Positions 1 through 64,000 of a stretch of DNA of 64,000 nucleotides are shown here, piece by piece. The notes under the pieces were generated by a model. The model saw only the letters and a program-made list of their open reading frames with translations. It was not told where the DNA came from and searched no databases. A program made the position numbers and the translations under genes. The stretch comes from Heligmosomoides polygyrus polygyrus. Its lineage: Eukaryota > Nematoda > Chromadorea > Rhabditida > Heligmosomidae. Location: contig OX377203.1 in NCBI GenBank assembly GCA_947396885.1, positions 3,596,001 through 3,660,000 of the forward strand. Reading direction: 5' to 3'. Every line of letters starts with the position of its first letter. Position 1 is the stretch's first letter.

Positions 1-692
1 TTCTTCTTCGTTCGTTCTTCACCGATCTATTAGGTTGATCGAAAACTCTCGCAATACTTTACCTCCTACAGTATTGATCTTGTGTGGTGACGTCACAGTA
101 CATCAGTTCGAATACAGCAACAATGTCAACGACAAGCAGCAGTATCTTCCGACCTATCGTCTACTACGAATGTCTGCAAGGCCATTCCGCAAGGAGTGCA
201 GCCTCCAACGTCTGCGCTGCATTCAGGGAGGAAGTCATTCACTATTCCACAGTGGCCCGTCGGTATCAGCGCTTTAGGGCTGGAGATATCTCGCTCGAAG
301 GTTGACCTCGTTCCGGACGCCCCTTTGTTGTGGAAGAAGACAGCTTGCGCGAAGCCTTCGAGGTGAAGCCAAACTCGACCACTCGCGAGTTGGCGGCGAC
401 ACTTGGATATACGCAAACTACCGTCGTGAGGCAGCTGAAGATCCTTGGGTACCGCAAACTTCTGTCGTCTTGGGTACCGCATGAGCTGCAGGACTCTGAC
501 AAGACATGCCGAATCAGTGCTGCCGAGTTGCTGCTTCTTCGCCCGCACAGAAAGGACTTTCCGAAGGACATTGTTACTGGTGATGAAAGCTGGGTTCTTT
601 ATTTTAACCACACCCGCAAGAGCCAATGGCTCCCACGTGGAGAACCGGCTCCAAGACAACGGAAACATGAACACCACGAAAAGGTTCGGATC

Positions 693-1212
693 TATCCTAG
701 TCCGGGGGGCCAAATAACTAAAAAGTAGGCAACAAAATTAATTGAAACTTGAAGAAAAGCGGCTCCTAGAGAGCGAGCTGGATCCTAAAAGAAACCAAAA
801 ACGAACGAACAAACGAAAAAATTAAAAATCGCCGCTCTTTGTCCGCCGAGGCGGTCTACAACCGCCTCGGCGGACAAAGAGCGACGGAATGGAGGCATAC
901 CGCGTGTTAGTCCCCGGCTGACATGTCATAACTAGCACTTGACATGATGGGGAATGCGTATGAAGCCGCATCCCGCGTGCTGACCGCCGTCTGACATGTT
1001 AAAACCAGGATCTAACATGATGAGGAGGGCACATAACTTGCCTGTTTACAACCGCAGGAAACGTAACTTTTTCTTTTTTTTTTTCTTCATGACTTTTCTT
1101 GTTTAGGTCTCATGTTGTTTTGTAGGAGCCGCTCGGTAAGTATCAAGTGGATTTGTTACATATAATACTTTTGACTTATGTGGTCCTCCCCCCCTCCCCC
1201 CGGACTAGGATA
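693..1212. mobile_element. palindromic insertion element inside mariner
   Basis: The segment separates two parts of a mariner gene that would otherwise be in register. Its ends are inverted: TATCCTAGTCCGGGGGG on the left and the complement CCCCCCGGACTAGGATA on the right. The match also extends outward into the flanking GGATC/GATCC. Deeper in, both arms share GCGGCTCCTA. No open frame of note is seen. Similar C-run-plus-CTAGGATA or ATTAGGATA ends occur at about 49,187-49,215 and 30,180-30,200, so this is a dispersed family. No transposase class can be assigned. Confidence 0.7.
833..883. repeat. perfect 23-bp hairpin
   Basis: The left arm (833-855) begins CGCTCTTTGTCCGCC. The right arm (861-883) is its exact complement, and the loop is the 5 nt CTACA. 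It lies near the middle of the element inserted in the mariner copy and may be that element's central fold. Confidence 0.85.
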
Positions 1213-1785
1213 GATCCGAAGGTTCTTCTGTGTTGCTGGTGGGACTCAGAAGGCATGCTTTACTGGGAGTTGCTGGATAGTAAGACCATAATAACAGCAT
1301 CTGTCTACGCCACCCAGCTTCAGAGCTTGGCCGACGTCGTGCGCCGAAAACGTCCAGAACGGGAAAATGTCCACCTGCTGCACGACGACACGCGTCCTCA
1401 TGTCGCAGAAGTGAGTCGCGAGAAAATCCAGGAGTTAGGCTGGGAAGTTCTGCCCCATCCACCGTACTCTCCAGACTTCGCTCCTTCTGACTACCACCTG
1501 CTCAGAGCTCTGAAGCAGCATCTTCGAGGTAGAGAGTTCGATGATCGATGTCAACTGGAAATGGAGGTTTCTGAATTCCTCTCCTCACAGCCCTCGGAAT
1601 TCTGGCGGAAAGGAATTGAAAGATGGGACAGGATCTTAGACTTGGATGGGGAATATAGGGACTGAGTTTTTGTGTATTGTATTATATTGTATTGTATTGT
1701 AATATTGTTCTGCTAGTGTTGCAAGACTTTTCGATCAACCCAATATTAACTGGTGCTGATCTTCAGTGAGAAGTGAGTTAGAGCC

Positions 1786-2544: not shown

Positions 2545-3872
2545 CTTGTATCACCTGTCACCTATCGTCCCGTTGATCATCGACTTGCTCGAGCGAGCGC
2601 CAGCAACGTCTCCATTCGTCCCTGTCGCGTGCCAGAGTGCTCCAATGGATCCACCTCGCTCGAGGGACACGAAGAGCGTCATATCCAATGCCAATGCGTC
2701 GGTGGGCGTCCTGGTGTTCTCTTGACATCCCGCGGAATCCAGTCGGTGATGGCTCTCGTCCAGCGGGTGTCTGCGAAGCGCATTACGTGGCCGACCCACC
2801 TAATTTTCGACAACTTGGCCCACGCGACAGCGTCTCTGATCTTCGAACGTCGGCGAAGCTCGGAACTCCGGAGGCCTTCTCTCACTTGCGTGAGTCGTGT
2901 CACTCCGAGCATCGTCCTCTCGATTCCACGCTGCGCGACGCTGATCGCGTGTTCATCCTGCTTTCGTATACCCAGGTCTCTGAGGCTTAGGCTTAGGGCA
3001 GGAAGAACGGTAGAGTCGAATAGGTGGGCCCGGAGTCGGACGTTCTTCGTCTTCTTCGCGACTTCTTCGACGCTCTTGAAAGCTCCCCAAGCCGCTCGTT
3101 CCTCCTGATCACCTCCGGCGCCAGGTCGCTGGCCATATTGACTTCGCGACTCAGATACACGTAGGTGGAGCATTCGGAGATGTTCGTTCCGTTGAGCGAG
3201 AATGGGGCATCAGAAACTTGTCCGTTTCTCATGAACATCGTCTTCGTAAGATTCAGCTGCAGTCCAACGTTCCCACATACACGGTCGAAGTCGGCCAGCA
3301 TTCGCTCCGCCTGGCTGATGCTCGGTGTTATGAGCACGGTGTCGTCAGCGAAGCGAAGATGGTGCAGCTGCTGGCCGTCGACTTTCACTCCCATGTCTTC
3401 CCATTCCAGTTCGCGCATGACGTTTTCGAGGGTGGCGCTGAAGAGCTTCGGGGATATGGTATCCCCTGCCGAACCCCTCTCTCCTCCGATGACGACGTCG
3501 TTGTAGAATGGAGAGATCTTGATCGTGAATCCACTGCACAGCTCTCGAGGGACTCTGATGTACTGAGTAGGAACGGCCTGAGCGCGCAGGGCTTCGATGA
3601 CCACTTCATTCTCGACGGAGTCGAATGCCTTCTTCAGGTCGATGAACGTAAGGCAAAGCGGTAGCTTGTACTCTCGCGACATTTCGATGAGCTTCGTAAT
3701 GGTGTGTATGTGGTTGATCGTGCTGAATCCTCTCCGAAATCCTGCTTGCTCGCATGGCTCTCGTTCGTCCAGCGTTCTGCTGATCCTATTCAGGATCACT
3801 CGAGTGAACAGCTTGTAGACTACGGACAGCAGGCAGATCGGGCGGTAGTTGCCAATGTCGTGAATGATAAAT
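2545..3872 (-). pseudogene. RTE-clade LINE reverse transcriptase, 5'-truncated
   Basis: Read on the minus strand, this encodes the C-terminal two thirds of an RTE-type polyprotein that copies its RNA at a nicked target. Landmarks in order are NYRPICLL, ILNRISRTLDE, EQAGFRRGFS, the catalytic aspartate motif FIDLKKAFDSVE, GDTISPKLFSA, the FADD active site (LRFADDTVLIT), AHLFDSTVLPAL, WVGHVMRFADTRWTR and TDWIPRDVKR. It ends near 2,551. The endonuclease domain is absent, as usual for 5'-truncated LINEs. Frameshifts move the reading frame near 3,480, 3,130 and 2,690, so it is dead. The protein resembles C. elegans RTE-1 and abundant hookworm copies, from memory of the family. Confidence 0.9.
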
Positions 3873-3929
3873 CTGAACCAAAATAAATGATTCGAACTCT
3901 AGAATCTAAACGTTAAATGATTCAAATCA

Positions 3930-4334: not shown

Positions 4335-4628
4335 AGGATAAGGATAAAGGATAAAGATCGGCGTTATTCAATCCTCTTTGGGATGCGCCACGCATTCGAC
4401 TTCTACTGGATGTCGTGGAGGCGTGTTGAATGCGTATTTGGCCATACGATGACTTGCGGCAGCCAGCCAATGTACACGTCAATGCTTTGTCCTTCCCAGA
4501 CAAGTCTGGTACCAATTCACCGACCCCGGAGGGATGGAACGCTTGGTTGGCCTGGGCAGGAAATCCAAACCAGGAACCTGGTGCCATCGGGTGCAGGCGA
4601 CAGCCGACGCCTCCTCCGACTGCGCTCC
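4335..4628 (-). mobile_element. tRNA-derived SINE (family A), full copy
   Basis: On the minus strand it runs from a tRNA-like head (AGCGCAGTCGGAGGAGGCG as A box, GGTTTGGATTTCC at the B-box position), through a body with CCTCCGGGGTCGG and CCAGACTTGTCTGGG, to the core GTAGAAGTCGAATGC plus GTGGCGCATCC, and ends in a TTTATCCTTATCC tail. An 8-bp direct repeat, ACAAACCA, flanks it at 4327-4334 and 4629-4636 and fits a target-site duplication. SINEs of this type are transcribed by RNA polymerase III and copied by LINE enzymes. Confidence 0.85.
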
Positions 4629-5670: not shown

Positions 5671-6600
5671 CTTATTCCCATTCAACTGCTCTTCTTCCAC
5701 GACCGTTTCCCTCTCTCAACTGGCCATTTTGACTCCTTTGCGACTGACTGCTTCTTTTGGCGTCCCGCTCCCGCTCCTGATTTCTGCCACTTATCCCCCA
5801 CGAAGAATCACGACTCGCCACCATGACAACCGTTTCGTTGTGCTCCGTTCTTTGACTCGCAACGACACTTCTCTGGAAATATTGACATTTCATTGCGTCG
5901 GCTTTCATGGCCAGAGATCCTTAAGTGCTAAGCCCCCGGGGAGTATGTAGTAGTAATCTCCTGAGAAACACTCAGTTTTCCTTTTCTTGTCGGGCACGTT
6001 CGCTGACTAGGAGCCCTTTTCCTGCAGGAAATGGCTTGTAAACGTTTCATCATTTGCTGGGTCTTGTCTTGCAGTTCACTTCCAGTTTCTGCGATTTAAA
6101 AAAGCATTTAATCCACTGTTTTTCCTCAAACAAGCAAATTTCTTTAAAACTTCAGACGTTTCTCTGAAAAACGAATGTTTCATTTAGAAGATGCCCAGTT
6201 TGATTTAAGATGATAGTTATATGAATGAAAATTCATTTAGTTTCATCTTAAGTTTTTTAAAATTCTAGCCTAATTTTAATTCAATTTAAAAATAGATTAG
6301 AATTTAAGAAAATTTCAAGGGAACATATAGAAATTTTCCTCGGACAAAAATTTTTTTCAACGATTTTGAGGAATTCCTAGTTTAATCTGGAAAACTCTTG
6401 ATTCATTTTTAAAACTTCCCGTTATTTAGAAAAGTGTCCAGTTTGGTTTAAAAAAGTGCACAAAATTTGCTTTGAAACTTTGAAAGGGGTTCGTTTGGTT
6501 TCTGTGTTGTTCAGTTTAATTTGAAAATTTTATTTATTTATTTATTTATTATCACTATTTCAGAGAGCTATTTGATATTACTATGTACTAACGAGGAGAG
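5671..6600. other. AT-rich intergenic stretch with family-C relics
   Basis: No gene is seen. After 6,050 the sequence is AT-rich and contains phrases such as GTGTCCAGTTTGGTTTAAA that match the arms of the foldback family at 22.9-24.2, 47.3 and 58.1 kb. A short TTTA run lies at 6,528-6,550. The part up to 5,940 is ordinary mixed sequence. Confidence 0.5.
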
Positions 6601-6760
6601 TAAGACATGCACTAGGCCAAGAATAAAGGGTAAAGGACGGCGTTACTCAATCCCTTCTGGGATGCGCCACGCATTCTACTTCTACAGGATGTCGTGGAGG
6701 CGATTTGAATGCGTATTTGGCCATACAATGACTTGCGGTGGCCAGCCGATGAACAAGCCT

Positions 6761-8050
6761 ATCAGTATTACATCGGTTTTTGCTCGTGTTTTTGAAAAGA
6801 TTATCAAAAAGGCGATCACTAGCCACCTTGAGCGCAATTCCGTGATCCCTAACGAACAGCATGGTTTCCGCAAAGGCGCTTCTACCGTAACTCAGATGCT
6901 GGACTCCTTGAATGACTGGACCAACAGTCTCAGCCTTGACCGTGCTGTTGATGTTGTGTATTTTGACTTTGCAAAAGCTTTCGATAAAGTACCTCATGAT
7001 AAGTTAGTTCATCAGTTGTCTGCAGTTGGGTTACACTTTAGGATTGTACAGTGGATCGAGGCCTACCTAGACAACCGTCTGTTTCGAGTGAATATTAACG
7101 GTCACCTCTCTGCTAGTAGAAGAGCAACTAGCGGGGTTCCTCAAGGATCAGTTCTGTCTCCCGTCCTTTTTAACATATACACCAGGAATCTTCCAGGAAT
7201 TATTGAGAGGATTGGAGTTTCTTGCAGAGCTTTTGCCGATGACATCAAAATTTATAGTAGCATTTCTGATTTCTGCGACGCTGCAAAAGGTCAAGAAGCT
7301 AACTCTCTGGTCTACTCTTGGTCTTTGTCATGGGAGCTTCCATTAGCGAAGGAGAAAACGAAGGTTCTCCACCTTGGTAAGAACAACTTGAAAGCTAGAT
7401 ATATCATTGACGGTGTTGAGCTTGAATCAGTTCAAGAAGTATCTGATCTCGGATTCTGGATTAACGAGCGCCTAGACTTCGGTAAGCATTGCGATGAAAT
7501 CTCAAGAAAAGGGATGGCAATGGTGTCTAGACTATTCAGGTCTGTGTCGTCTAGCGATCCTCAACTGCTGCTAAAGGCCTATAAAATATATATCCGTCCA
7601 GTATTAGAATACGGTACGACTGTCTTCTGTCCAGCAAGTGTTAAAAGTAGTTCTACAATAGAAAGGGTTCAAAACAGTTTCTCTAGGAAGCTTTTGCTTC
7701 GCACTGGCAGCTTTAACTATGCAACTATCCCTGAAAGCCGTTCGCGTAACGCTATTCTCGGTTTGCAGTCGCTCGTGTTGCGCAGGAAGAAGCTTGACTT
7801 AATAATGGTATATAAAATCCTACACGGACTCGTTCACCTTGAACCTAACAAATTCTTTCCTATGCGAAACTCCATTACTAGAGGCGCTAAAAATAAACTA
7901 TATCTACCTCATGCCGCTGCTTCGGTGCGGGCCAACTTCATCATACATCGTGCGGGTACAGAATATGTAAAAATGGCCAAGCGTTTTCCTCCAGCTCCTA
8001 CACTCTCCTCCTTTAAGAGGGCCTTGAACAAGTTTTTAAATTCTGGTTGA
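6761..8050 (+). CDS. LINE reverse transcriptase, partial but open
   Basis: The longest convincing coding sequence in the window. It has no internal stop from the insertion junction to the TGA. Reverse-transcriptase motifs follow in order: HGFRKGAST, the aspartate motif VYFDFAKAFDKVPH, TSGVPQGSVLSPVLFNIY, the FADD active site (CRAFADDIKIYSS), a thumb region with LHLG, and the C-terminal EYGTTVFCPAS, QNSFSRKLL and FINSG-like end FLNSG. Both catalytic aspartate positions are intact. The endonuclease and the N-terminal part of the RT are missing. The open frame runs upstream into the SINE (from 6521), but that part is chimaeric and not LINE protein. Clade assignment (CR1 or jockey type) is from motif style and uncertain. 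The intact frame suggests a young insertion. Confidence 0.88.
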   Translation: MSITSVFARVFEKIIKKAITSHLERNSVIPNEQHGFRKGASTVTQMLDSLNDWTNSLSLDRAVDVVYFDFAKAFDKVPHDKLVHQLSAVGLHFRIVQWIEAYLDNRLFRVNINGHLSASRRATSGVPQGSVLSPVLFNIYTRNLPGIIERIGVSCRAFADDIKIYSSISDFCDAAKGQEANSLVYSWSLSWELPLAKEKTKVLHLGKNNLKARYIIDGVELESVQEVSDLGFWINERLDFGKHCDEISRKGMAMVSRLFRSVSSSDPQLLLKAYKIYIRPVLEYGTTVFCPASVKSSSTIERVQNSFSRKLLLRTGSFNYATIPESRSRNAILGLQSLVLRRKKLDLIMVYKILHGLVHLEPNKFFPMRNSITRGAKNKLYLPHAAASVRANFIIHRAGTEYVKMAKRFPPAPTLSSFKRALNKFLNSG

Positions 8051-10078: not shown

Positions 10079-11793
10079 TTAGGGAACTCTTTTCCTATTT
10101 GAAGGCGTAGGTGCCTTTCTGCTCGGGCTTACTGGGCAATGAATAGATGAATAGAGTGCGTCGTGGAGATAACGCAGTTCATGAAGATCGTCTTCTGCAA
10201 TCGAGAATGGATTCATTTAAAGGAGCCTGAACGCACTGGGACGTTGTCTTGTCTCATATAAAGATGAAAGTGACGAAATATGTGTGGAGATACTATCGCT
10301 TGGTTAGTATTCCACGTCAGAGGGTACTTCAGCCAGGAATTCAGTAGCACTCCACGACTCTAGATAAAAGTAGAATGCGTGGCGCATCCAAAGCGGCACC
10401 AACAATTGTCCAGCGCCAATCTTGCTCCTTTATCCTTCAACATCGGCAGCCTAACCACCTGCTGAGGCCTTGCTGCCGAATTCGATAGTATCGATCAATA
10501 TTGATTGGACGACCATACTCTTTAGCTATTGTAAATGAAAGATATTCTTGTGGTTCCCTCTCCAGATGGAGGTATCCAGGCGGAAATTGACGCCATTATA
10601 TTGATCGATATTAATTGGCCGATCGATAAAGATTGCCGGTTGAGAACACTACCCATCGGGTGATATATTCGAGTGGCTTCCAATGTCAGATGGCTATTCA
10701 GGTCAGAACTGTCCCCCTATTGTGAAGTCTGCGCACTGGCCATTATGTTCGCTTGATTCCTTTTTCAGGCGGTCATTTGTAAACAAGGTCGATAAAATCG
10801 ATCGACATTGACTAGCCAATTCATGCTGTTTATCTGGCGTGAAATCTGTGCGTCGACTGTGGGTTGCTCCCCAAATGGCCACCTCTGGACTAGGACCGAT
10901 ATTGATTGGCCGATCAATAATGTTTGCTGGTTGTGAGGCCTACCCATCGGCCAATATGTTCGCGCGGTTCTCGCATTAAACAGCCATTTATGGCCAAACA
11001 ACAGTGTAATGATGGACCGATCGGTACTGTTTACTTCTCGTAAGGTTTTCCATCAGTCATCATATTCGCATGATCCCCTCGTTAGATCCGTTGGTTAGCC
11101 CCTGAGCCAGAATCAATATATCGACTGAGTACTTCAAGCGGCAGTTAATTTTGCGCGGACAGAGGGACAGACGCACACACTGGTGGATCATAGTGAGAGA
11201 AAATACGTTTTCCCATCCTTCGCCAAGATTTCTAAGAGCTGCTATGTTTCTGTGGTGTTTTTCGACCAGCTTCGACCACTAAAGATGCATCAAGTAAAGA
11301 AGCCAATTGCACGGCAGCTGACGTCAACCAGTGCGGCAGATTGATGACGGCATTGTACCCGTTTTTTTGTCCGCGAGGGTTTCTCAGGATAGCCATTATT
11401 TGTACTTGTGATCGATTGCTATGCGGTGATTAACACTCTTGCTCATTTGAAGCTGTTTTCTCGCAAGGGCTGCACTTTTCAGTAGTTTTTCAAATCGGAC
11501 TGCGTCATCCCGACTTCTTATTTGTCTGTTCTTCTTTAAGGTCTTCCTTTAGACACTTTTAAGGTTCGGATCTGTCAGGTACTCTTTAGCCTTCGCCCCA
11601 TATCCAGGTGATCATGTTCGTCGAAGGTTCACGGAACACATAGGATAGCGTCTCAGTGAGGGCCTTCCAGTTCCTTCCACTTTTCCTGCTCAGCAGTCAT
11701 TGATTCTACTTCAGAAGTAGCTCGCCGAATACTGAAATAACATGCCAGGTGCAGTCGATAATATGCGAGCAGAAAGCCGTCAAATTGGATCAC
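10079..11793. other. intergenic with degenerate tandem repeats
   Basis: No gene is seen. At about 10,470-11,060 diverged units share a phrase like GATCGATATTAATTGGCCGATC followed by GCCGGTTG and CTACCCATCGG, recurring roughly every 120-300 bp. A SINE core fragment (GTAGAATGC plus GTGGCGCATCC) is at 10,370-10,392. The TTAATTTTGCGCGGAC motif is at 11,147-11,162. Confidence 0.45.
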
Positions 11794-11815
11794 CTCAAAC
11801 TTGGGTATTTAAACC
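11794..11815 (-). repeat. solitary SL1-like sequence
   Basis: On the minus strand it reads GGTTTAAATACCC then AAGTTTGAG, matching the nematode SL1 leader at 21 of 22 positions. It is followed by GTGATCC, so a GT donor dinucleotide is present in the right place. No typical Sm-binding site (AATTTTTGG) is seen in the next 100 bases. It is either a degenerate SL RNA gene or the 5' end of a retroposed trans-spliced RNA. Confidence 0.6.
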
Positions 11816-25848: not shown

Positions 25849-27700
25849 AGGTAGCCCGTCCGTTTGTCCATTTGTGCGTCTCCACAAAATTATTGGCCGC
25901 TGGGTTGAACGTGCTTATTACCGTGAACCAAGACGATCCTGCGAACTATGTGATGAACTAGAATTTTGTGCGGTAGATCATTCTGTCGACCAGAGATGCC
26001 TTTGGGTCTCTTTGCGCAGTCACGTAGAAGTAGAATGCGTGGCTTATTTCAAAGAGGTTGCCATCTAATCGATTGATTTAAGGTGTACAGAACCAGTGAC
26101 GAAAAAACAGCTTTGAGGTGTGTCCGTCTGTCCATTTGTGCGTCTGTGCAAAATTATTGGCCGCTGGACTGAACGGGCTTATTACTGCGAGCCGAGACAA
26201 TCCTGCAAACTATGTAATGAACTAGAACTTTGTGGGGTAGATCATTCTGTCGACAAGAGATGTCATTGTGTCCCTTTGCAAAGGCACGTAGAAGTAGAAT
26301 GCGTGGCTTATTCCAGAGACCCCGTCATCTAATCGATTGATTTGAGGTGGGTGGAAGCAGTTGCGAAAAACTGCGTGCTTTGAGGTGTCTGTCCGTTTGT
26401 GCAGTTATGCGTCTGCGCAAAATTATTGGCCGCTGGATTGAACGGGCTTACTGCTGTGAGCCGAGATGATCCTGCAAACTATGTATGAACTAGAATTTTG
26501 TGCGGTAGATCATTCTGTCAACCAGAGATGCATTTGTGCCTCCTTGCACAGCCATGTAGAAGTAGAATGCGTGGCTTATTCCCAACTGGCTGCCATTTGA
26601 TGTTAACAGAAGCAGCGGCAAAAAGTCACTTGCTTTGAGGTGTCCGTCCGTTTGTCCAGTTGTGCATCTGCGCAAATTTATTGGCCGCTGGATTGAAAGG
26701 GCTTATTGTGCATGTAATGAACTACGATTTTGTGCCGTGGATCATTCTTTAGACTAAAGAGGCAGTCTCCATGCACAACCACGAAGAAGAAGAACGTGTG
26801 GTTTATTCCAAAGAGGCTGTCATCTAATCGATTATTGTAATCGATTATTTAAGGTGAGCAGAAGTACTGACGAAAAAACTGTGCTTTGAGGTAGTCTGCT
26901 TGTCAGTGTGTCCATTTGTGCGTCTGCGCGAAATTATTGGCGGCTGGACTGGAAGAGAGCCAAAGAATCTATCATTATCGATTTTCCTGCACAGCCGGAG
27001 AAATGTCGAATGCAGGATTAAATGTCGCGGGACTGAGAGATAGCTTAAGAATCGATCATTGTCGATTTTTCTGTACTTCCATTTATAAAGGAGTTCATCT
27101 GTTACTACGTCCGCGCAAAATTAATGGCCGTTCGACTGGGAGTGACTTGAAAAACCGGTGATTAGCGATTTTTCTGTACAGCCAAAAAGAAGTCGAGTGC
27201 ATGACTGATCTCGCCGAAGCGGTTGTTCCGAAGTTAACTGGAACGATGGCAAAGAGTGATGTACTTCTAACTATAAAGGAGCCCGTATGCTTGTGTGTCC
27301 GCGCAAAATTAATGGCCGCTGGACTGGGAGAGGATTGAAGAACCGATCATTATCGATTTCCCTGCACAGCCAGACAGAAGTCGAAGCGTGGCTCATCTCG
27401 CTCAGAAGTTGATTTCTGCAGTCAGCCAAAATGACGACAAATGTCACCGTGTTACCTGTGCAAAATTAATTGCCGCTGGACTAGGGAAAGTTGTAGAACC
27501 GGGCATTATCGATTTTTCTTCACAGCCAAAGAGAAGTGGAATGCATGGCTGATTCCGCCGAACCGGTTGTTTTGAAGTCAGCCCAAACGACGGCAAATAG
27601 TGGTGTACTTCTATTATATTTATGAAGTTGTCCATCTGTTTGTACGTCCGCGCAAGATTAATGGCCGCTGAACTGAGAAGGAGCTAAAGAATCGATCATT
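25849..27700. repeat. tandem array, two unit classes
   Basis: The first part has four units starting near 25,849, 26,117, 26,382 and 26,637, with a fifth start at 26,887 (spacings 268, 265, 255, 250). Each contains CAAAATTATTGGCCGCTGG, a GTAGATCATTCTGTCGAC stretch and the core AGTAGAATGCGTGGCTTATT. The second part has shorter units with GCGCAAAATTAATGGCCG near 27,113, 27,301, 27,459 and 27,651 (spacings 188, 158, 192), plus CATTATCGATTTTTC and ACAGCC. Frames through the first two units give similar peptides (GRWVERAYY / GRWTERAYY), which follows from DNA identity. Confidence 0.85.
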
Positions 27701-31532: not shown

Positions 31533-33061
31533 TCTCAAATAAAAGCTAGATTTATGATGTCGCTCAAGTTTCCTTTATTTATCGCCTGAAATTATGCGCT
31601 CTTATCTGTTTATATAGTAAGATATATGTATTAAATTATTTTGTACATATTTTTATATATTATTATACTATCACGTTAAATAATTTTGTATTATTAAAAA
31701 TACAATTTCGACGTCAATCGGGCACTTTTGACGTCAAGTTAGCCATTCCTCTAAGCCAGCTTCAGACATTTGAAATCAAAGCGAACTCTTCCAAATCTGA
31801 ACGAGCTTCTTCTACTTTAAACAAGTGGCTCTCCAAAGAGGTTAGAATAATTTTTTATCGGAAAAATTGTTAGTATACAATTAATTACATGAGCACGTTG
31901 TCTGAAATTTTATAAAATTCTCTTCTTTTTTTAGGGAAAATAATGGTTTAAGGCTTGTTTTAAAGAGCAGGGGGACTGCCATTTTTTAGTGCCAAATAGA
32001 GAGAGCGCCATGGATCCGTCCAAGACGTCGCGATTTTTATTCGATTGATAGCGAAATTGCTGTTTGCATGGAATTTCACATCTGTACAAAAAAATAATTG
32101 TAAGGATCCCACATATTCTCACTTTGGTGCTTCATGTGAGCAGCATTTACACTATCAATCAAGTAAACATTGCGAAGAGCTTTTCGAGTGCATGGCACAA
32201 TCTGGCCTTTTAGTGCACTAAATGATTGCTACCTTTCTGAGCTTTAAAACGAAGTTTAATTTGTTGTTTTTCACAAAAGATAAAATTTTGATAAAATAAG
32301 TTATACCTACTGAGACAGGTGAACTAAAACATTTCGAAGAAAGCTACAATAAACAATAAAATAAAGTTTTTTTGAACAAAAAATGAAATTGTGAACACTG
32401 TCGAATTTGATCTGAAAAGTGTCCAATTCGACGAAAAAATTATATATTTTCCATATTTTTATTCTACATTAAAATGTTTCTTTTATCGAGCCTTAAACTT
32501 ACAAATTTGTCAAGAATTTCTTCAAATAAAAAATAGTTTTTATTTTCTCGTAATTTTTCGTTTTTAAATACATTTTGAAATCGCGAATCTTAAAGTATTA
32601 AGAAGAAGAATTTGCGAAGAGCTTTTTGAACGCATGGCGCAATCTGAATTTTTGATGGACTAAATGATCGCTGCCTTATTGCGCTTTAAAATGGAGTTTA
32701 GTTTATAATTTATTCTATTGTTAAAACAAAAATAAATTAAAATCAAAATTAAAATTAAGGGCAAAGGACGGCGTTACTCAATCCCTTTTGGGATGCGCCA
32801 CGCATTCTAATTCTACAGGATGCTGGCTTAGAGGAGTGGCTAACTTGACGACAAAAGTGCTCGATTGACGTCGAAATGGTGTATTTAATAATACAAAATT
32901 ATTTAACGTGAAAGTACAATAATATATAAAAAATATGTATAAAATAACTTAATACATATATCTTACTATATAAATAGATAAAAGTGCATAACTTCAGGCT
33001 CGATAAATAAAGGAAACTTGAGCGACATCATAAATTTAGCTTTTATTTGAGAAAAAAAGTG

Positions 33062-33356
33062 GTAAGGATAAGATAAAGGACGGCGTTATTCAATCCTCTT
33101 TGGGATGCGCCACGCATTCTACTTCAACGTGATGTCATGGAGGCCATTTGAATGCGTATTTGGCCATACAGTGACTTGCGGTGGCCAGCCGATGAACAAG
33201 TCAGCGCTCTATTCTTCCCAGGCAAGTCTGATAGCGATTCACCGACCCCGGAGGGATGGAAGGCTTGGTTGGCCTGGGCGGGAAATCCGAACCAGGAACC
33301 TGGTATCGGGTGCACGTGACAGCCGGCGCCTCCTCCGACTGCGCTACACGCGCCCA
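33062..33356 (-). mobile_element. tRNA-SINE (family A), right arm copy
   Basis: The minus-strand partner of the 31,228 copy. On the plus strand it starts with the tail GGTAAGGATAAGATAAAGG, then the core complement GGATGCGCCACGCATTCTAC, and ends at the head complement CCTCCTCCGACTGCGCTAC. Small differences from its partner show the arms have diverged since they formed. Confidence 0.9.
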
Positions 33357-42149: not shown

Positions 42150-45100
42150 GTTTCAGACTTTTGGGTGGCGTAGTTGTAGAGCTTCGTATCCCTACTACAG
42201 CTCTTATCGACATGTATCTCTCTCTATTTTGTCACCCGTGGTCGCTATCGCCCAATGTCGCTCGTTGTCGCTCAGTCTCGCCCACTGTCGCCGTGTGTCG
42301 CTCGCTACCAAGATGTCTTCCATTTTTCCAATTGTGTCTCTCTTGGGATATTGGGAGAAGGGATATTTACTAATCAGCAGCCACTCCTAGACCACCCTGA
42401 AACCGTCTACGTAAAGCCTATAGCTTAAGCTATACTTGTCTAATGTGTTCGCTTGTTGTCGCCTGTCATCGCTCGACGTCGCCAACCATCGCCGGCTTCT
42501 TCATTAATATCATTTCGTTCGCTATTCATTATCGAAATGTATCTCTATCTCTACTTTGTCACCCGTGGTCTCTCAGTGTCGCTTCTTGTCGCTCAGTGTC
42601 GCCCACTGTCGCCGAGTGTCGCTCGCTACCAAAACGTCACCCACCTCTTTTCCAGCCGTAGCCCTCTTCACCGTTGTCTCCTTTCACTTATCGCCTGCTG
42701 ACGCCTCCCATCGCCAGCTAGAACCTCACGGTTTCTACTTCTGAATCCGTCTCTCAGTAGATCAAAGGGGAACCCATCTGCTCCCATTTCGCTCGCAGTC
42801 GTAATGTAGCGAAGGGTGCATAAACCAGGCCATGAGGATCGTTTAAGGCTTTTTTGCTCCGGCGTCGCTGTTTCGGTCACGTCCTTGCCATGACACGATG
42901 CAGTATCTCAACGACGACAGACTAGCTTCGGAGGTTTAGCTTTTTAGAGTATCTGAGCCCGTAAAATCGCCTCAGCTTCGACTTTTAGCTGCCTCCCTCG
43001 AGTTCTTTTCATTGGAGCGATAAGGGATATTTACTATTCAGCAGCCGTTCCTAGACCATCCTGAAACCGTCTGCGTAAAGCCTATAGCTTAAGCTATACT
43101 TGTCTAATGTGTTCGCTTGTTGTCGCCTGTTATCGCTCGATGTCGCCGACCGTCGCCCGCTTCTTCATTAATATGATTTCACTCGCTGCGTTGCTGCAGA
43201 GGCCCGTCCAAAGCTAACTTTTGTCTCCAGGTGTGGCACATTTGTGTCGTTTGTTGTCGCTCGTTGTCGCCTGATGCCGCCTGCCCTCGCCTGCTGCTAC
43301 ACTTGTCGCTTGGTGTCGCGTTCACATTCAATTTCACTTCTTTCAGATGGATGCGTCTGCGACCATTCTCTTGGAGCTTCTACTGAGGCCGATGTCGGCG
43401 GTATTATTGTCGCTCTCTGTCGCGCGTTGTCGCCCATTGTCGCCCAGTGTCGCCAGGTGTCGCTTCCATTCGCCAACATCCAACTGGCTTTACCCGCCTC
43501 TTTCTACTACTAAAAACCTCTTGTAACTTCGGTGGTTGAGCTGCTAATACTGCTGGTACTGCGTGTCTTCCAGATTGATTTTCTTCACATCCATTCTGTA
43601 CTTCATTCACAATGTCGCTCATTGTCGCCTATTGTCGCCGGATGTTGCCGACCAGCTCCTACTGTCACCAGACGTCCTCTGAGTTCTCTGATTAACGAAC
43701 ACAGCCTCCTAACAGTATCTACTGTTTTCGAGCTGTTTTTGAGGTACATTACCATCGCACCTTGTCGCCTGTTATCGCTCGATGTCGCCAATCATCCCCG
43801 CTTCTTCATTAATACGGTCGCTGAGTTCCTCCAGATGTCATCCAAAGTTAACTGTTGTCTCCAGGTGTTCTCGTGGCACATTTGTGTCGTTTGTTGTCGC
43901 TCGATGTCGCCTGTCCTCGTCTACTGCTACACTATCTCAGTTTCCCTCTCTGCCTCCAAGTCTCTCATCTTATGTGTCGCAGCTCGTCGCTGTTGTCGCC
44001 AACATTCGCCTATTGTCGCTTGGTGTCCCGTTCGCATTCAATTTCACTTCTTTCAAATGGATGCTTCTGCGACCATCCTCTTGGAGTTTCTACTGAGGCC
44101 GATGTCGGCGGTATTATTGTTGCTCTCTGTCGCGCTCTGTCGCCCAATGTCGCCCAATATCGCCCAATGTCGCCTAATGTCGCTTCATCCAGTCGCCAAC
44201 ATCAGACTGGCTTTACGCGCCTCTTTCTAATACTACAAATTTCTCGCAACTTCGCTAGTTGAGCTGCTAGTCCTGCAGGTACAGCCGCGTCGTTCAGGTT
44301 GATTTTCCTCACATCCATTCTGTACTTCATTCACGTTGTCGCTCATTGTCGTTTATTGTCGCCAGATGTTGCCGATCAGCATCTACTGTCACCAGACGTC
44401 CTCTGAGTGCTCTGACAGCCTACTAATAGTATCTACTGTTTTCGAGCTGTTTTTGCGGTACATTACCATCGCGCCTTGTCGCCTGTTATCGCTCGATGTC
44501 GCCAACCATCGCCCGCTTCTTCATTCTGAGTTCCTCCAGATGCCGTCCAAAGTTAACTGTTGTCTCCAGGTATTCTCGTGGCACATTTGTGTCGTTTGTC
44601 GTCGCCCGTTGTCGCTCAATGTCGCCTGCCCTCGCCTGCTGCTACGCCATTCCAGTTTCCCTCACTGCCTCCAAGTCTCTCATCTTATGTGTCGCACCTC
44701 GTCGCCTGTTGTCGCCAACATTCGCCTATTGTCGCTTGGTGTCGCGTTCGCATTCAATTTCACTTCTTTCAGATGAATGCGTCTGCGACCATCCTCTTGG
44801 AGCTGCTACTGAGGCCTGATTTCAGTGGTATTATTGTCGCGCTCTGTCGCGCCTTGTCGCCCAATGTCGCCAGGTGTCGACTCCATTCGCCAACACCCGA
44901 CGACTGGCTTAACAGACCTCTTTCTACTACTAAAAATCTCTCGTAACTTCGGTGGTTGAGCTGCTAATACTGCTGGTACTGCGTGTCTTCCTGATTGATT
45001 TTCTTCACATCCATTCTGTACTTCATTCACGTTGTCGCTCATTGTCGTCTATTGTCGCCAGATGTTGCCGATCAGCATCTACTGTCACCAGACGTCCTCT

Positions 45101-46250
45101 GAGTGCTCTGACAGCCTACTAATAGTATCTACTGTTTTCGAGCTGTTTTTGCGGTACATTACCATCGCGCCTTGTCGCCTGTTATCGCTCGATGTCGCCA
45201 ACCATCGCCCACTTCTTCATTCTGAGTTCCTCCAGATGCTGTCCAAAGTTAACTGTTGTCTCCATGTATTCTCGTGGCACATTTGTGTCGTTTGTTGTCG
45301 CTCGATGTCGCCTGTCCTCGCCTACTGCTACGCTATCTCAGTTTCCCTCACTGCCTCCAAGTCTCTCATCTTATGTGTCGCACCTCGTCGCCTGTTGTCG
45401 CCAGCATTCGCCTATTGTCGCTTGGTGTCGCGTTCGTATTCAATTTCACTTCTTTCAGATGGATGCGTCTGCGACCATCATCTTGGAGTTTCTACTGAGG
45501 CCGATGTCGGCGGTATTATTGTTGCTCTCTGTCGCGCTCTGTCGCCCAATGTCGCCCAATGTCGCCCAATGTCGCCTAATGTCGCTTCATCCAGTCGCCA
45601 ACATCAGACTGGCTTTACGCGCCTCTTTCTACTACTACAAATTTCTCGCAACTTCGCTAATTGAGCTGCTAGTCCTGCTGGTAGTGCCGCGTCGTTCAGT
45701 TTGATTTTCTTCGCATCCATGGAGTACTTCATTCATGTTGTCGCTCATTGTCGTCTATTGTCGCCGGATGTTGCCGACCAGCTCCTACTGTCACCAGACG
45801 TCCTCTGAGTTCTCTGATTAACGATCACAGCCTACTAACCCTTTCTGCTGCTTTCGAGCTGTTTTTGCGGTCCATTACCATCGCGCCTTGTCGCCTGTTG
45901 TCGCCAAGTTTCGCCTTTCGACTTTCGACTGATGTGTGGTTCTTTGAGTCATTAGTCTCATTCACTCTTAGGCCTATGTTATACTTCGGCGACGCTTTTG
46001 TCGGCGACGTCGGCGACAGTGTTGAGCGGGTGCTATGCAGTGCGTAGCAGCCCACAACCGACTGTTGCCGACGTCGCCTACAACAGCGTCGCCGAAGTAT
46101 ACATAAGCCTTAAGACAATTGCCGTCTTCGAGCGGCCTGATGCCTGATGTCACTTGTCGCTTGCTGTCGCGCATTGTCGCCTGGTATCGCCTAGTGTCGC
46201 TTGGAGTCGCGACATACGACTGCTGTATTTTACGCGTCCCTTTCTCTCAC
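42150..46250. repeat. higher-order tandem array of TGTCGC decamers
   Basis: The basic motif is TGTCGC plus four variable bases, for example TGTCGCCCAA repeated near 45,540-45,580. It is almost always on the plus strand. These decamers are mixed with unique text in units of about 700 bp. The anchor CCATTCTGTACTTCATTCA recurs at 43,591, 44,315, 45,011 and, changed, about 45,717 (spacings 724, 696, 706). A second anchor, GGGATATTTACTA, recurs at about 42,360 and 43,025. Plus-strand ORFs rich in C, R, S and L read through the motif and look spurious. Confidence 0.9.
45968..46112. mobile_element. GGCC/TATAC foldback inside the array
   Basis: TTAGGCCTATGTTATACTTC on the left and GAAGTATACATAAGCCTTAAG on the right. 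The arms have GGCGACGCTTTTGTCGGCGACG / CGTCGCCTACAACAGCGTCGCC. The same arm sequence appears in the short copy at 47,336-47,420. Confidence 0.88.
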
Positions 46251-46855: not shown

Positions 46856-46877
46856 CTCAAACTTGGGTGATTAAACC
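46856..46877 (-). repeat. solitary SL1-like sequence
   Basis: On the minus strand it reads GGTTTAATCACCC then AAGTTTGAG, 21 of 22 matches to SL1, followed by GTCATTTATTG, so a GT is present at the donor position. No AATTTTTGG-type Sm site was found in the next 100 bases. Candidates are a degenerate SL RNA gene or the 5' end of a retroposed trans-spliced mRNA. Confidence 0.6.
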
Positions 46878-47274: not shown

Positions 47275-47465
47275 AACGTTTTTCACGTCAAATTGGACAC
47301 TTTCCAAATCAAACTGGGCACTCTTCTAAGCTAACCTAAGCCCTTTGCTATACTTCGGCGACGCTGTTGTCGGTGACGTCGCCGACAACAGCATCGCCGA
47401 AGTATAACATAGGCCTAAGGCTTTGAAATCGAAGCGAACACTTCCAAATCGAAATAAGCTCCTTC
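47275..47465. mobile_element. family-C fragment with a short palindrome inserted
   Basis: TTTTTCACGTCAAATTGG and ACACTTTCCAAATC start a family-C arm, which continues after 47,420 as GAAATCGAAGCGAACACTTCC. Between them a short GGCC/TATAC palindrome (47,336-47,420) has arms GGCGACGCTGTTGTCGG / CCGACAACAGCATCGCC around a GTGACGTC centre. It is one of the smallest members of its family. Confidence 0.8.
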
Positions 47466-47469
47466 TACA

Positions 47470-48238
47470 TTAAGCTAGGGCCCAACTGTTGTATATGGAC
47501 AGAATCGCCTCTCTCTGGGAAACAGCAAAATGCAAGTATCTCGACCCCAATACAACTTTGCGCAGAGTTAGGGACGACAGAAGTTTGGCCTTTGCCTACG
47601 TTAGCCCTCTGCCTGCACGCGGAGGGCGAGCTCAAGCTGGCTGGAAACAGCGACGACGTCCCAGCAGTAGTGGCGCAGTGGATAGACGGGCGGCTTAGTG
47701 GACCGGGTGGTTTGTGGTTCGACTCCCTGGTGATCAGGATTTTTGCACTTCCTGAAAAAGACCTGCCACGATCAACCAACCAAAGCTCTATGTCAAATCG
47801 CAACGAAAACGGTCACCAGAAAGGAAACCAATTTCCTTTGTACTCTCCATACTTGGAAAACCTTATTTGCCTAAACACAGCCTAGAGAGGTTAGGGGAAC
47901 CAATTTCCTTTCTGGTAACATTTTCCGTTGCGATTTGACATGAAGAGCTCTAGTTGATCGTGGCGGATCTATTCTAGGAAGTGCAAAAACCCCGCATAAC
48001 CAGGGAGTCGAACCACAAATCATCACGCCGCCCCTCTATCCACTGCGCCATCACTGCTCGGCCATCGTCTCCTTATCCAGCCTACTTGAGCTCGCCCTCC
48101 GCGTGCAGGCAGAGGGCTAACGTCGCCAACGGCCCAACTTCCGTCGTCCATAACTCTGCGCAGCCTTGTATTGCGGTCGAGATACTTGTATTTTGATGTT
48201 TCCCGGAAAGTGGCGAGTCTGCCCATATACAACGCTTG
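47470..48238. mobile_element. foldback with tRNA-like modules in both arms
   Basis: The left arm includes CCTCTGCCTGCACGCGGAGG and a tRNA-like GTAGTGGCGCAGTGGATAG with TGGTTCGACTCCCTGG (47,665-47,735). The right arm (47,975-48,238) repeats both in reverse complement (CCAGGGAGTCGAACCAC; CCTCCGCGTGCAGGCAGAGG). An inner pair is CAATTTCCTTT and its neighbours near 47,830 and 47,905. The arms are about 320 bp. The plus-strand and minus-strand ORFs here are mirror frames of the same sequence. Confidence 0.85.
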
Positions 48239-49080
48239 GGCGGCTCCGACCTACCGTTGAGATGGCCCTCCTGATTAGGCTTAGGCTTGGAAGAGTGTCC
48301 AATTTGACGTGAAAAGGGCGTCTGAATCCAATGATATCCACGAAAGCCACGGCTATCCCTGAGGGTTTCCGTCATTGTCACATTCCGGTCGCTCGAGTGT
48401 TGTTGTTGTTTTTGCGATGGCAGCGAAAACGCACACGACCAGTTTCATCGGCTTCGAGAACGGCAGACGCGCTCTGACGGCGAGGGGATGGCTTCGGAAG
48501 AGGCTTTAGCTCTTCAAAGCTCTCACTCTTCTGCGTCCACATTTGTTGCGAGCGCTAGCGCATAGACTTCTCGGTCTCCAGGTGAGTTAGGTCTGGTACT
48601 GGACTCGCCTAGCTAGGTCAAAACACTGACTTGTCCATCGGTATAGCCCCGTAGAAGTCGTGGAATGCGTGGCGCGTCCCTCACAATGCGCATGATTCCC
48701 ATCGGAGGCGCAGCCTTCTAGCATCCAGTGTTGGTCTTCCCTCACCTTTTGGCTGATTTGACACCAGCAAGGTCTGCATTCGTGTTCCCCACAGTGTGCC
48801 AGAATGACCCAGTCGGTATGCCTCTCTCAGGGGACACGATGTGACAAGGGAGTCCGGCGAAGGTCTCACTGAGCGTTACGTCGCTGTGTCGTCCCGTGAG
48901 TGTCATTCCGCCGCTTTATGCACTACCGTTTTTTCGCGTTTATTCTGCCCAAAAATCAAAGTACAGAAGAGGTATTGTAATGGGATTTATCCTAATTGGG
49001 AGGGGCACTTCACTCAATCGAGCAGAAATTCGATTCACGACGAGGATAAAATGGAAAGTCTGCTGTTTTACGGAGGCTAT
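48239..49080. other. mixed relics, no gene
   Basis: A family-C phrase (GTCCAATTTGACGTGAAAAG) at 48,297-48,317. A SINE body/core fragment at about 48,600-48,700 (GTAGAAGTCGTGGAATGC). A diverged RTE 3' relic at about 48,740-48,870 (GTGTGCCAGAATGACCCAGTC, minus-strand LINE). Confidence 0.5.
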
Positions 49081-61420: not shown

Positions 61421-62397
61421 CCTTTTCTCTCCGCGGCTTTCGCTCGGTCCTTCCGTGGTCTTTTGAGGCGACAGCTTTTCGTTCCAACGACAGCCTCGAC
61501 GTGCTCCAGCTCAGCTCAGACTCTCTAATCCTGAGCACGAGGCGCGACCCATTTACCCGTAATGAATAGGCTGTGCGACGGCGGCGGCGATGTTCTGTTC
61601 GATTTTCGTCCAGCGAGCTCAAATCGGGCCGGGTGCGTCCGTGTTCACTGCCTGTGCTCGGTGTTTGTGCGCGTTTCTCGACTTACAACGAGTCGACCGT
61701 CGTCCCGGCTTCTTCTTCTCGCTCGCGATTTCTTTGGTGTTTTCGCGTTTCCGTCGCAGACCTCGCTCTGCTCTGCTTTAACTTTGACGGCTGCTGAGCA
61801 AACAATCACGTTGTGAACACACTCCACACACCGGTCGCAAAGCCATTTCTCATTCTGGTGCTGCCTTTGTGTCGATATTTCACTCAGTTAGCGTTAGTTG
61901 TCGATTCTTCTTCATGCAAACGCTTCAGATCCAACGCTAGCAGGGAGGTCGCCTTAACTTTTGGGGCCAGACTGACCCTAGAAGGCCTTAGATTCATCGA
62001 ACAAATGGGCCTATATGTCTTAACGGCATGTATTGCTTCAAACGGAAAAGGAGAACGCGGAAGAAAAGCAATAGTTTGGTTTCCGTTTCTTTCTTTTTTT
62101 CGGGTAAATGTCGCGAAGGCGCACAGCGGGGGTGCGGGAACGTGCTGCTGCTCCTACCGTAACGGCGGCAGCCAATAATGTGCACTGCCTGTGCGGCTGA
62201 GCCGATGCCTAGTTGTTCTTTTTGTTTACGTGCCCTTATTCAGAAACCAGACAGCGTAAGACTCCCGCATAGTCCTTTTTTTCTTACTATCCTTGGATTC
62301 TCTTCCTCTATTTTTGTTTGCTTTGCTCATCAGTAAGGGTAGTAAGGACGGGTCAGAAGATGAGAAAGGAAGGAGCAGGAAATTTAATGAGTTTTAT
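61421..62397. other. GC-rich then mixed sequence, no gene supported
   Basis: A plus-strand ATG at 61,562 opens MNRLCDGGGDVLFDFRP with a possible GG/GTGCGT donor near 61,633. Overlapping frames are open on the same strand, so coding is not established. The rest shows nothing recognisable. Confidence 0.3.
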
Positions 62398-63225
62398 CTC
62401 GAACTTGGGTAATTAAACCAACGTATAGAAGCTTGATGTCGGTAAAAGTAGAACGCATGGCGTATCCCAATACGTATTGGATTTTGTTGGAAAAAGACGA
62501 TCTAGCATGAGTAGAAGTACAAGTCATGCGATTCGTTGTTTATATATATATATATATCTCAAACTTGGGTAATTAAACCATCGTGTGGATGACTTGATGT
62601 TAGTAGAAGTAGAACGCTTGGCGTATCCCAGCATATATTGGAATTTGTGTGAAAAAGACGGCCTTGCATGAGTGGAGGTCCTCATGCGAGTCGTTGTTAG
62701 TGTTTATTTCAAACTTGGGCAATTAAACCAACGTATAGAAGCTTGATGCCGGTAGAAGTAGAACGCATGGCGTATCCCAGCACTTACTGGATTTTGTTGG
62801 AAAAAGACGGGCCTTGCATGAGTTGAGGTAGAAGTCATGCGAATCGTTGTTTGTATTATCTCAAACTTGGGCAATTAAACCAACGTATGGAAGCTTGATA
62901 TCGGTAGAAGTAGAGCACATAGGGTATCCCAGCACGTATTGGGTTTTGATGGAAAAAAACGGGCCTTGCATGAGTAGAAGTAGAAGTCATGCGAGTCGTT
63001 GTTTGTATATATTTCAAACTTGGGTAGTTAAACCATCGTATGGAAACTCGATGTCAGAAGTCGAACGAATGGCGTATCCCAACATGTATTGGAATTCGTG
63101 TGAAAAGAAAGGACCTTGCATGAGTATAGGTCCTCATGCGAGTCGTTAGTGTTTATCTCAAACTTGGGTAATTAAACCAACGTATGGAAGCTTGATGTCG
63201 GTAGAAGTAGAACACATGGGATATA
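62398..63225 (-). repeat. tandem array of SL1 spliced-leader units
   Basis: Read on the minus strand, six copies of the 22-nt nematode SL1 leader (starting GGTTTAATTACCC, ending AAGTTTGAG) begin at 63,178, 63,034, 62,881, 62,729, 62,579 and 62,419. The first and the fifth are exact; the others differ at one or two positions. Unit spacing is 144-160 bp. After SL1 comes ATAAAC or a variant where an SL RNA gene would have GTAAAC, so the donor GT is missing in every unit. A conserved stem (GCATGAG / CTCATGC) follows in several units. No Sm site is evident. On the opposite strand each unit carries the core GTAGAAGTAGAACGC plus ATGGCGTATCCC that is shared with the SINEs. This looks like an SL-RNA-derived repeat, not working SL genes. 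A TA run lies at 62,541-62,556. Confidence 0.88.
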
Positions 63226-64000
63226 TCATAATTTAATTATATCTATTATAAATTTTTAATGTTAGTTTAACTATTAATAATATTGTTATATAAGTAAAAT
63301 AATTAATGAACAATAGGTTAAAATTTGTTTGCAAAAAATGAAATTCTTACAAAAATTTCAAACCATATCGTCACTTATTTGAAAGGTGATTAGAAAAATG
63401 GCGAAAAAGTCATAGGAAAATTTCCGCAAACAAAAAATTATTGGAAAATGTTCAGTTTCATTTAAAAAGTGTCGAGTTTCCTTAGAAGAGTGTCTAGTTT
63501 GAGGTGAAAATTCTATATTTTTAGTCGCTGAGTAGCGCGGCGTGATGAAAGCTGCTAATATCGATTAGGCTACGCGGCTGCGATCGATATTGGTGTCTTT
63601 TATAATGCCGCGCGCTGAATGAAGTATAAATCTCGCAATAAACCTACAAAGTGCCAGAAAATCTGCACTTCGGCTTGATATACGACAGCGATTCAAAGCT
63701 GTTACCAGCTGTGACCCACTCGTGAGTCACACTGACGTCGTTGCATCCGAGTAGATGGGCCCAAAAAGCTGCCGCTGTCTAGAAGAGGCGATCAAAGCCG
63801 CCACTAATAGGCTTATCGGCTGGCTTCTCACGCACGTAGTGGTTAGATGACGTGAGTCGTCGGCGCATAGGCGTGCCTCCACGCTCCTTCCTTTCAGCTG
63901 CCGTCCGTCGCCGGCGGCTCGTTCGCTCAGCTCGAGCTTCTGACTGGCAGCGGCGCCGTTGGTTCTTACTCCTGACTGCTGTTCTGCTTCTGAAGCGCTC
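63226..64000. other. AT-rich then GC-rich end of window
   Basis: 63,226-63,520 is AT-rich and ends in a family-C phrase (GAGTGTCTAGTTTGAGGTG). A diverged palindrome is at 63,525-63,640 (GCGCGGCGTGATGAAAGC; ATATCGATTAGGC / GATCGATATTGG; GAAGTATAAATC). From 63,880 it becomes GC-rich (GCCGTCCGTCGCCGGCGGC), possibly a promoter edge of a gene beyond the window. Confidence 0.4.

Follow-up and report, generated by a model that had tools for sequence, protein, structure and literature searches.

A Tandem Array of SL1 Leaders

The window studied here (the whole 64,000-nucleotide stretch of Heligmosomoides polygyrus polygyrus DNA that was analyzed) contains an array of spliced-leader SL1 sequences arranged in tandem on the minus strand (Table 1). 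Tandem Repeats Finder reported it as a repeat extending from 62394 to 63219 with a period of 152, 5.4 copies, and 80% matches, and in a second row as extending from 62395 to 63224; the monomers lie head to tail, as is characteristic of satellite (tandem repeat) DNA. A search for the 22-nt leader located six minus-strand matches to SL1 between 62398 and 63178, with zero to two mismatches each and with start-to-start distances, from 62398 upward, of 160, 150, 152, 153, and 144 bp. These results bear out an earlier note on this DNA, which had described six minus-strand leaders, 144–160 bp apart, two of them exact. A chance origin of the six leaders can be ruled out, as 100 shuffles of the window gave 0 matches. 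Searches for the exact leader in viral and prokaryote contig collections returned 0 matches.

The monomer of approximately 152 bp is a composite, consisting of the SL1 exon, some 65 bp of other sequence, a 38-bp segment of a tRNA-derived SINE in antisense orientation, and a spacer of about 20 bp. A comparison of its two halves (A versus B) was equaled in score by 83 of 2,000 shuffles, and a half-unit duplication within the monomer is therefore unproven.

Table 1. SL1 leaders, SINE-homologous segments, and SINE copies in the window
Feature	Position	Strand	Details
Tandem array	62394..63224	-	Period ~152 bp; five full units and a partial unit at either end
SL1 leader copy 1	63157..63178	-	Exact; then ATAAAC
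SL1 leader copy 2	63013..63034	-	Two mismatches, last exon base A; then ATATAT
SL1 leader copy 3	62860..62881	-	One mismatch; then ATAATA
SL1 leader copy 4	62708..62729	-	Two mismatches, last exon base A; then ATAAAC
SL1 leader copy 5	62558..62579	-	Exact; then (AT)n run
SL1 leader copy 6	62398..62419	-	One mismatch; then ATAAAAC; array stops just beyond
69-nt repeat segment with SINE-homologous stretch	62432..62500	+	Plus strand is the SINE orientation; family D16, 6 copies
Same 69-nt segment (D16), other copies	62593, 62742, 62894, 63044; 63191		Copy at 63191 partial
tRNA-derived SINE, representative copy	33057..33355	-	Families D3, D5, D8; tail with TTTATCC repeats
Further tRNA-SINE copies	near 4335, 6614, 22053, 31457, 37176, 60030		
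Solitary SL1 copy	11794..11815	-	One mismatch, then GT; degenerate protein-like segment ~270-560 nt downstream
Solitary SL1 copy	46856..46877	-	One mismatch, then GT; ATG 20 nt past the leader

Absence of a Splice Donor and of an Sm Site

In none of the six units is the leader followed by GT. Instead, the dinucleotide directly after it is AT in all six, and the trinucleotide is ATA in all six, an invariance that is most simply attributed to one inherited ancestral state rather than to six independent losses. The earlier note had reported AT or AA at the donor position and had proposed a comparison of this position among the copies; that comparison upheld the absence of GT and the presence of AT in every unit, whereas AA proved to reflect the last exon base, which is itself A in two of the six units (GAA followed by AT). 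Nor did the SL strand of the interval 62350–63330 match any of three Sm patterns (A-T(4-6)-G-R, RA-T(3-6)-GG, and A-T(3-6)-G), in keeping with the earlier statement that no Sm site is seen in the array. Judged by the features of a nematode SL1 RNA gene, the array has the leader and lacks both the GT donor and the Sm site. As had been foreseen, a repeat built on SL1 in this way, with AT in 6/6 units and no Sm match, should be unable to donate its leader in the normal manner.

Could the units nevertheless be working SL RNA genes that donate the leader through an AT donor? The invariance of AT in all six units would fit such a scheme, but shared ancestry accounts for it, and none of the three Sm patterns is matched. 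Moreover, what we take to be the U12-type AT donor consensus is absent after the leader. In flatworms, three donorless SL loci have been regarded as possible pseudogenes with negligible evidence of trans-splicing (PMC12582326). We reject AT-donor trans-splicing as exceedingly improbable.

An Antisense SINE Segment in Each Unit

The window is rich in tRNA-derived SINEs, and we derived a SINE consensus from eight copies, out of 21 core matches located outside the array. The head of the representative copy resembles the tRNA boxes when set against what we take to be their consensus. Alignment of the unit consensus with the SINE consensus revealed 38 bp of homology in antisense orientation, and none of 2,000 dinucleotide shuffles scored as well; in the sense orientation the similarity was at the level of chance (1,279 of 2,000 shuffles). 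A 29-nt stretch of this segment had 19 near-matches (nine or fewer mismatches) elsewhere in the window, as compared with a simulated mean of 0.025 (n = 40). The 38-bp segment is all that the unit has in common with the SINE: ARAGORN, used to look for a tRNA-like head, made 0 predictions in the array and three in the window.

The SINE motif that had been noted on the strand opposite SL1 is thus genuine. The broader proposition that it links SL1 and tRNA-SINE biology goes no further than a stretch of DNA common to both, in antisense orientation. We considered and rejected the idea of a SINE carrying SL1 in the sense orientation, because the SINE segment runs opposite in orientation to the leader, and the orientation would likewise be the wrong one for a chimera of SL RNA and SINE generated by template switching, which we also rejected.

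The SL1 array, the tRNA-SINE copies, and a 264-bp tandem repeat all contain a motif near GTAGAAGTAGAATGCGTGGC, which is weakly present (9 mismatches in 29) in a 156-bp tandem repeat as well. Sites of this kind are found at 25858–26707, at 27303–27598, and in SINE copies across the window. The motif would seem to resemble a core common to otherwise different repeats.

Limited Resemblance to an SL RNA Gene beyond the Leader

The main alternative explanation for the array is that it descends from tandem SL1-RNA genes in which the donor G and the Sm site disappeared ahead of amplification or at an early stage of it and in which SINE sequence replaced a part of the gene. We consider this possible, albeit somewhat doubtful. 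The tandem layout and a unit big enough to accommodate an SL RNA are in its favor, as is an internal hairpin, GCATGA..TCATGC, that is unchanged in all five full units. Runs of five or more T are also present in four of the five full units, with C next in each (the AC?T form was judged by inspection only); counted from the donor position, they start 53, 54, 51, and 62 nt downstream in units 2–5. SLIDR by default looks for an Sm site of the form A-T(4-6)-G at 20–60 nt past the donor and, in its setting for C. elegans, for AC?T(4-6)G at 40–55 nt, a distance to which the runs in the array come near (PMC7986045). The succession of hairpin, T-run, and hairpin is found in three of the five units, as against 90 of 4,000 random positions in the window and 0–3 of 1,000 shuffles per unit, although the criteria of this test were fixed after the sequence had been seen and, because the units are relatives, it counts about once. 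Finally, compared with what we take to be the intron sequence of C. elegans SL1 RNA, unit 4 has 13 matches in 21 positions (background P = 0.00045), but the remaining five units have only 7–10 of 21.

Other observations weigh against descent from SL RNA genes. The terminal (3'-like) hairpin lies almost wholly within the 38 bp of SINE homology, although its first half aligns poorly. RNAalifold detected a compensatory change in only one of 29 predicted pairs, with a covariation term of +1.12, and folding z-scores for the five units were -3.20, -1.13, -0.02, -1.84, and -1.13. When three of the six units were tested singly against the Rfam SL1-RNA model (RF00198), two scored 14.0 and 13.1 and one gave no match (E up to 10), all far below the gathering cut-off of 75; at gathering score the whole window contained one tRNA only. 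The two solitary SL1 copies described below scored higher than the three tested units, at 21.5 and 18.6, still under 75, a comparison that is confounded because the solitary copies have GT and GT itself adds score. The solitary copies had folding z-scores of 0.69 and 0.10. Given the low intron match, the Rfam scores, the z-scores, and the single compensatory pair, little in the unit beyond the leader need derive from SL RNA. Whether the repeat should be called SL-RNA-derived, as had been suggested, is uncertain: the layout in three of five units speaks for it, and the Rfam scores below those of the solitary copies and the SINE-homologous terminal hairpin speak against it.

Two Solitary SL1 Copies

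The window also contains two solitary SL1 copies, neither of which appeared in the earlier list of leaders. No further SL1 match was found in the window on either strand at six or fewer mismatches.

The segment downstream of the copy at 11794 resembles a 96-aa protein (P0121), which was the single protein match for the frames in this region; in a tblastn comparison the two were 87% identical at 11521–11432 and 84% identical at 11420–11235, in two different frames. P0121 itself had no Pfam or PDB match, and for the frames past 11794 the best PDB match had an E value of 0.71 and the best Pfam match an E value of 0.096, below the Pfam cut-off. The frame past the copy at 46856 contains three stops in 160 codons, the last one counted. 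It constitutes a weak hint of a coding sequence, because 520 of 20,000 random points had such a frame with up to two stops allowed and the 46856 copy fails even that standard. For this frame Pfam yielded nothing at E values up to 1, a protein search with 88 candidates gave no match at E up to 10, and the PDB gave only chance matches to zinc fingers (best E value of 0.56).

Judging from these sequences, the copies at 11794 and 46856 may possibly be SL1-tagged retrocopies. It is also possible, in view of the RF00198 scores and the cut-off given above, that they are decayed SL genes.

The solitary copy at 46856 is flanked by near-palindromic elements at 45966–46115 and 47335–47420, whose arms at 45967–46018 and 47368–47419 are 92% complementary to each other.

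Age of the Array and Conservation of the Leader

Pairwise divergence among the five full units, taken over ungapped columns beyond the leader, is 10.8–22.5%. With this degree of divergence the array is not very recent, and the earlier view that it had been recently amplified finds no support.

In an alignment of the five full units from which 20 gapped columns were excluded, the leader was less variable than the rest of the unit (3 of 22 columns versus 43 of 120), a difference that is marginal (one-sided Fisher p = 0.03), that was tested post hoc, and that ignores the relatedness of the units. Of 142 circular windows, ten were as invariant as the leader, and every one of them overlapped it. 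The lower variation of the leader is the only hint of use and might be due to function, to exchange with live SL1 genes, or to chance.

Its bearing is on the notion that SL1 has been kept in the array as a DNA or RNA element, whether a site that resembles a promoter or binds protein or a decoy RNA for factors that bind SL1, such that loss of the donor would not be decay. In Ascaris, the 22-nt leader of the SL RNA genes acts as an internal promoter element, and this, along with the lower variability of the leader columns, can be counted in favor of the notion. Against it, four of the six leaders have one or two substitutions, and the statistical support is of the marginal kind just described. 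We regard the retention of SL1 as such an element as unlikely. A stronger form of the idea, in which selection maintains the leader for some role apart from splicing, such as that of a promoter element or of a decoy RNA binding SL1-specific factors, and in which loss of the donor would be adaptive by preventing splicing, we judge slightly less likely still. The regulatory or decoy use entertained in the earlier note retains this one weak hint and nothing further.

Comparison with Other SL1-Bearing Repeats

In Brugia malayi, 316 SL1 elements have been described, of which 120 are integral copies situated away from SL1 or 5S arrays; 60 of the 120 are within 1 kb of PAO retrotransposons, and the authors infer that trans-spliced transcripts became integrated (PMC7181701). 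The array resembles these integral copies in that the leader is found outside SL1 or 5S arrays and beside repeat elements, and differs from them in that its copies are arranged in 150-bp tandem and are fused to an antisense SINE segment (PMC7181701). No PAO domain was found in the 20 of the window's 75 open reading frames that were scanned with Pfam, two of which lie in its last 7 kb.

A parallel in satellite DNA is offered by Meloidogyne, in which the monomer of MelSat01 / INC satellite (Mi-SL1b) also holds the SL1 22-mer (PMC9673304). The splice donor and Sm site of MelSat01 are preserved from species to species, whereas the array has no GT and no Sm match (PMC9673304). As an instance of SL genes that are able to form satellites, MelSat01 lends support to the descent of the array from SL1-RNA genes (PMC9673304). 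In Heterodera glycines, SL1 has been found at 180 loci, 22 of which are near an Sm motif, so that by subtraction 158 of 180 loci resemble the array in having SL1 without a nearby Sm site (PMC6362198); the accessible part of that report makes no mention of a tandem layout or of a fusion to a SINE, both of which are found here (PMC6362198).

More distant systems show related features. In flatworms, no more than partial leaders were present at 597 loci that lay close to mobile elements and had been discarded, and integration was suggested (PMC12582326). Like the flatworm SL-bearing loci near LTR and LINE elements, the array has a leader beside mobile elements but no remainder of an SL RNA, and like some flatworm SL loci it is donorless; unlike them, it belongs to another phylum and contains another leader, and the examined part of that report describes no tandem composite of this kind (PMC12582326). 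The relic leaders reported in dinoflagellate retrogenes after retroposition of trans-spliced mRNA provide a model for the solitary copies, whereas the array is not evidently a copy of a gene (PMC6050394, PMC12014239). Haemonchus has HcRep, an expressed array of seven repeats of 111–182 bp (PMC3156134). None of the open-access titles listed in our literature searches names a SINE-fused SL1 satellite, and the composite satellite looks like a variant of known SL1-bearing worm repeats.

Other Repeats and Open Reading Frames in the Window

Arrays of TGTCGCCC-type 10-mers occupy approximately 4 kb at 42246–46221 and form higher-order repeats about 700 and 1,400 bp apart, some pairs of which are 96–97% alike. 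An inverted repeat of 215 nt that is 86% complementary, with further nested arms, is located at 47480–48241. The Pfam scan of 20 of the 75 open reading frames identified transposase domains in two and reverse transcriptase in two. These correspond to pieces of a mariner-type transposase, in two frames, and to two reverse transcriptase frames, at 306–1665 (plus strand), 2993–3898 (minus strand), and 6476–8050 (plus strand). The reverse transcriptase frame at 6476–8050 is 51% identical to its best relative among the matches listed. Eighteen of the 120 matches listed carry the name of an organism, and 14 of these are from nematodes (Ancylostoma, eight; Haemonchus, three; Caenorhabditis, three); the remaining named relatives among the matches listed are from a lizard and an archaeal metagenome-assembled genome (MAG).

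Origin of the Array

The reading that we favor, with a probability of about 0.5, is that the array is an old, nonfunctional composite satellite built on a captured SL1 exon, with A already in place at the +1 base by the time of amplification. The leader would have entered the genome as an exon that was already spliced or fragmentary. Its simplest carrier would be a transcript to which SL1 had been added by trans-splicing and which ran antisense through SINE-derived sequence; such a transcript might have been reverse-transcribed and then integrated. The founder monomer would already have had A at +1, and tandem duplication would have amplified that founder. Capture of a spliced exon leads to the expectation that sequence runs on past the exact end of the exon with neither GT nor an Sm site. 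In the array the leader stops at the exon boundary and is joined there to other sequence without a donor or Sm site, as would be expected of an integrated SL1-tagged transcript.

Our preference for capture over descent from SL1-RNA genes is moderate, because no direct marks of retroposition were recognized at the array: inspection of its flanks disclosed neither a poly-A tail nor a target-site duplication, nor the body of a retrotransposon or mRNA, and the AT-rich flanks have only TTAAATT in common. Three further observations count against capture. Both solitary copies have GT, which copies of the exon alone need not have; the hairpin, the T-run (in four of five units), and the weak intron likeness of one unit occur at the places expected for an SL RNA; and conservation is slightly higher in the leader columns than elsewhere in the unit. 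Whichever its origin, the array is most likely without function in trans-splicing.

Significance

The array illustrates how SL1 sequence can escape from the SL-RNA gene and be incorporated into repeats. Two solitary copies and one array in 64 kb would represent a high density if the window is typical of the genome. This is of relevance to tools that count genomic SL1 sequences as a guide to SL genes, and to estimates of the frequency with which trans-spliced RNA finds its way back into the nematode genome. If, in addition, it were true that the donorless leader is under selection, this would raise the question of functions of SL1 beyond splicing.
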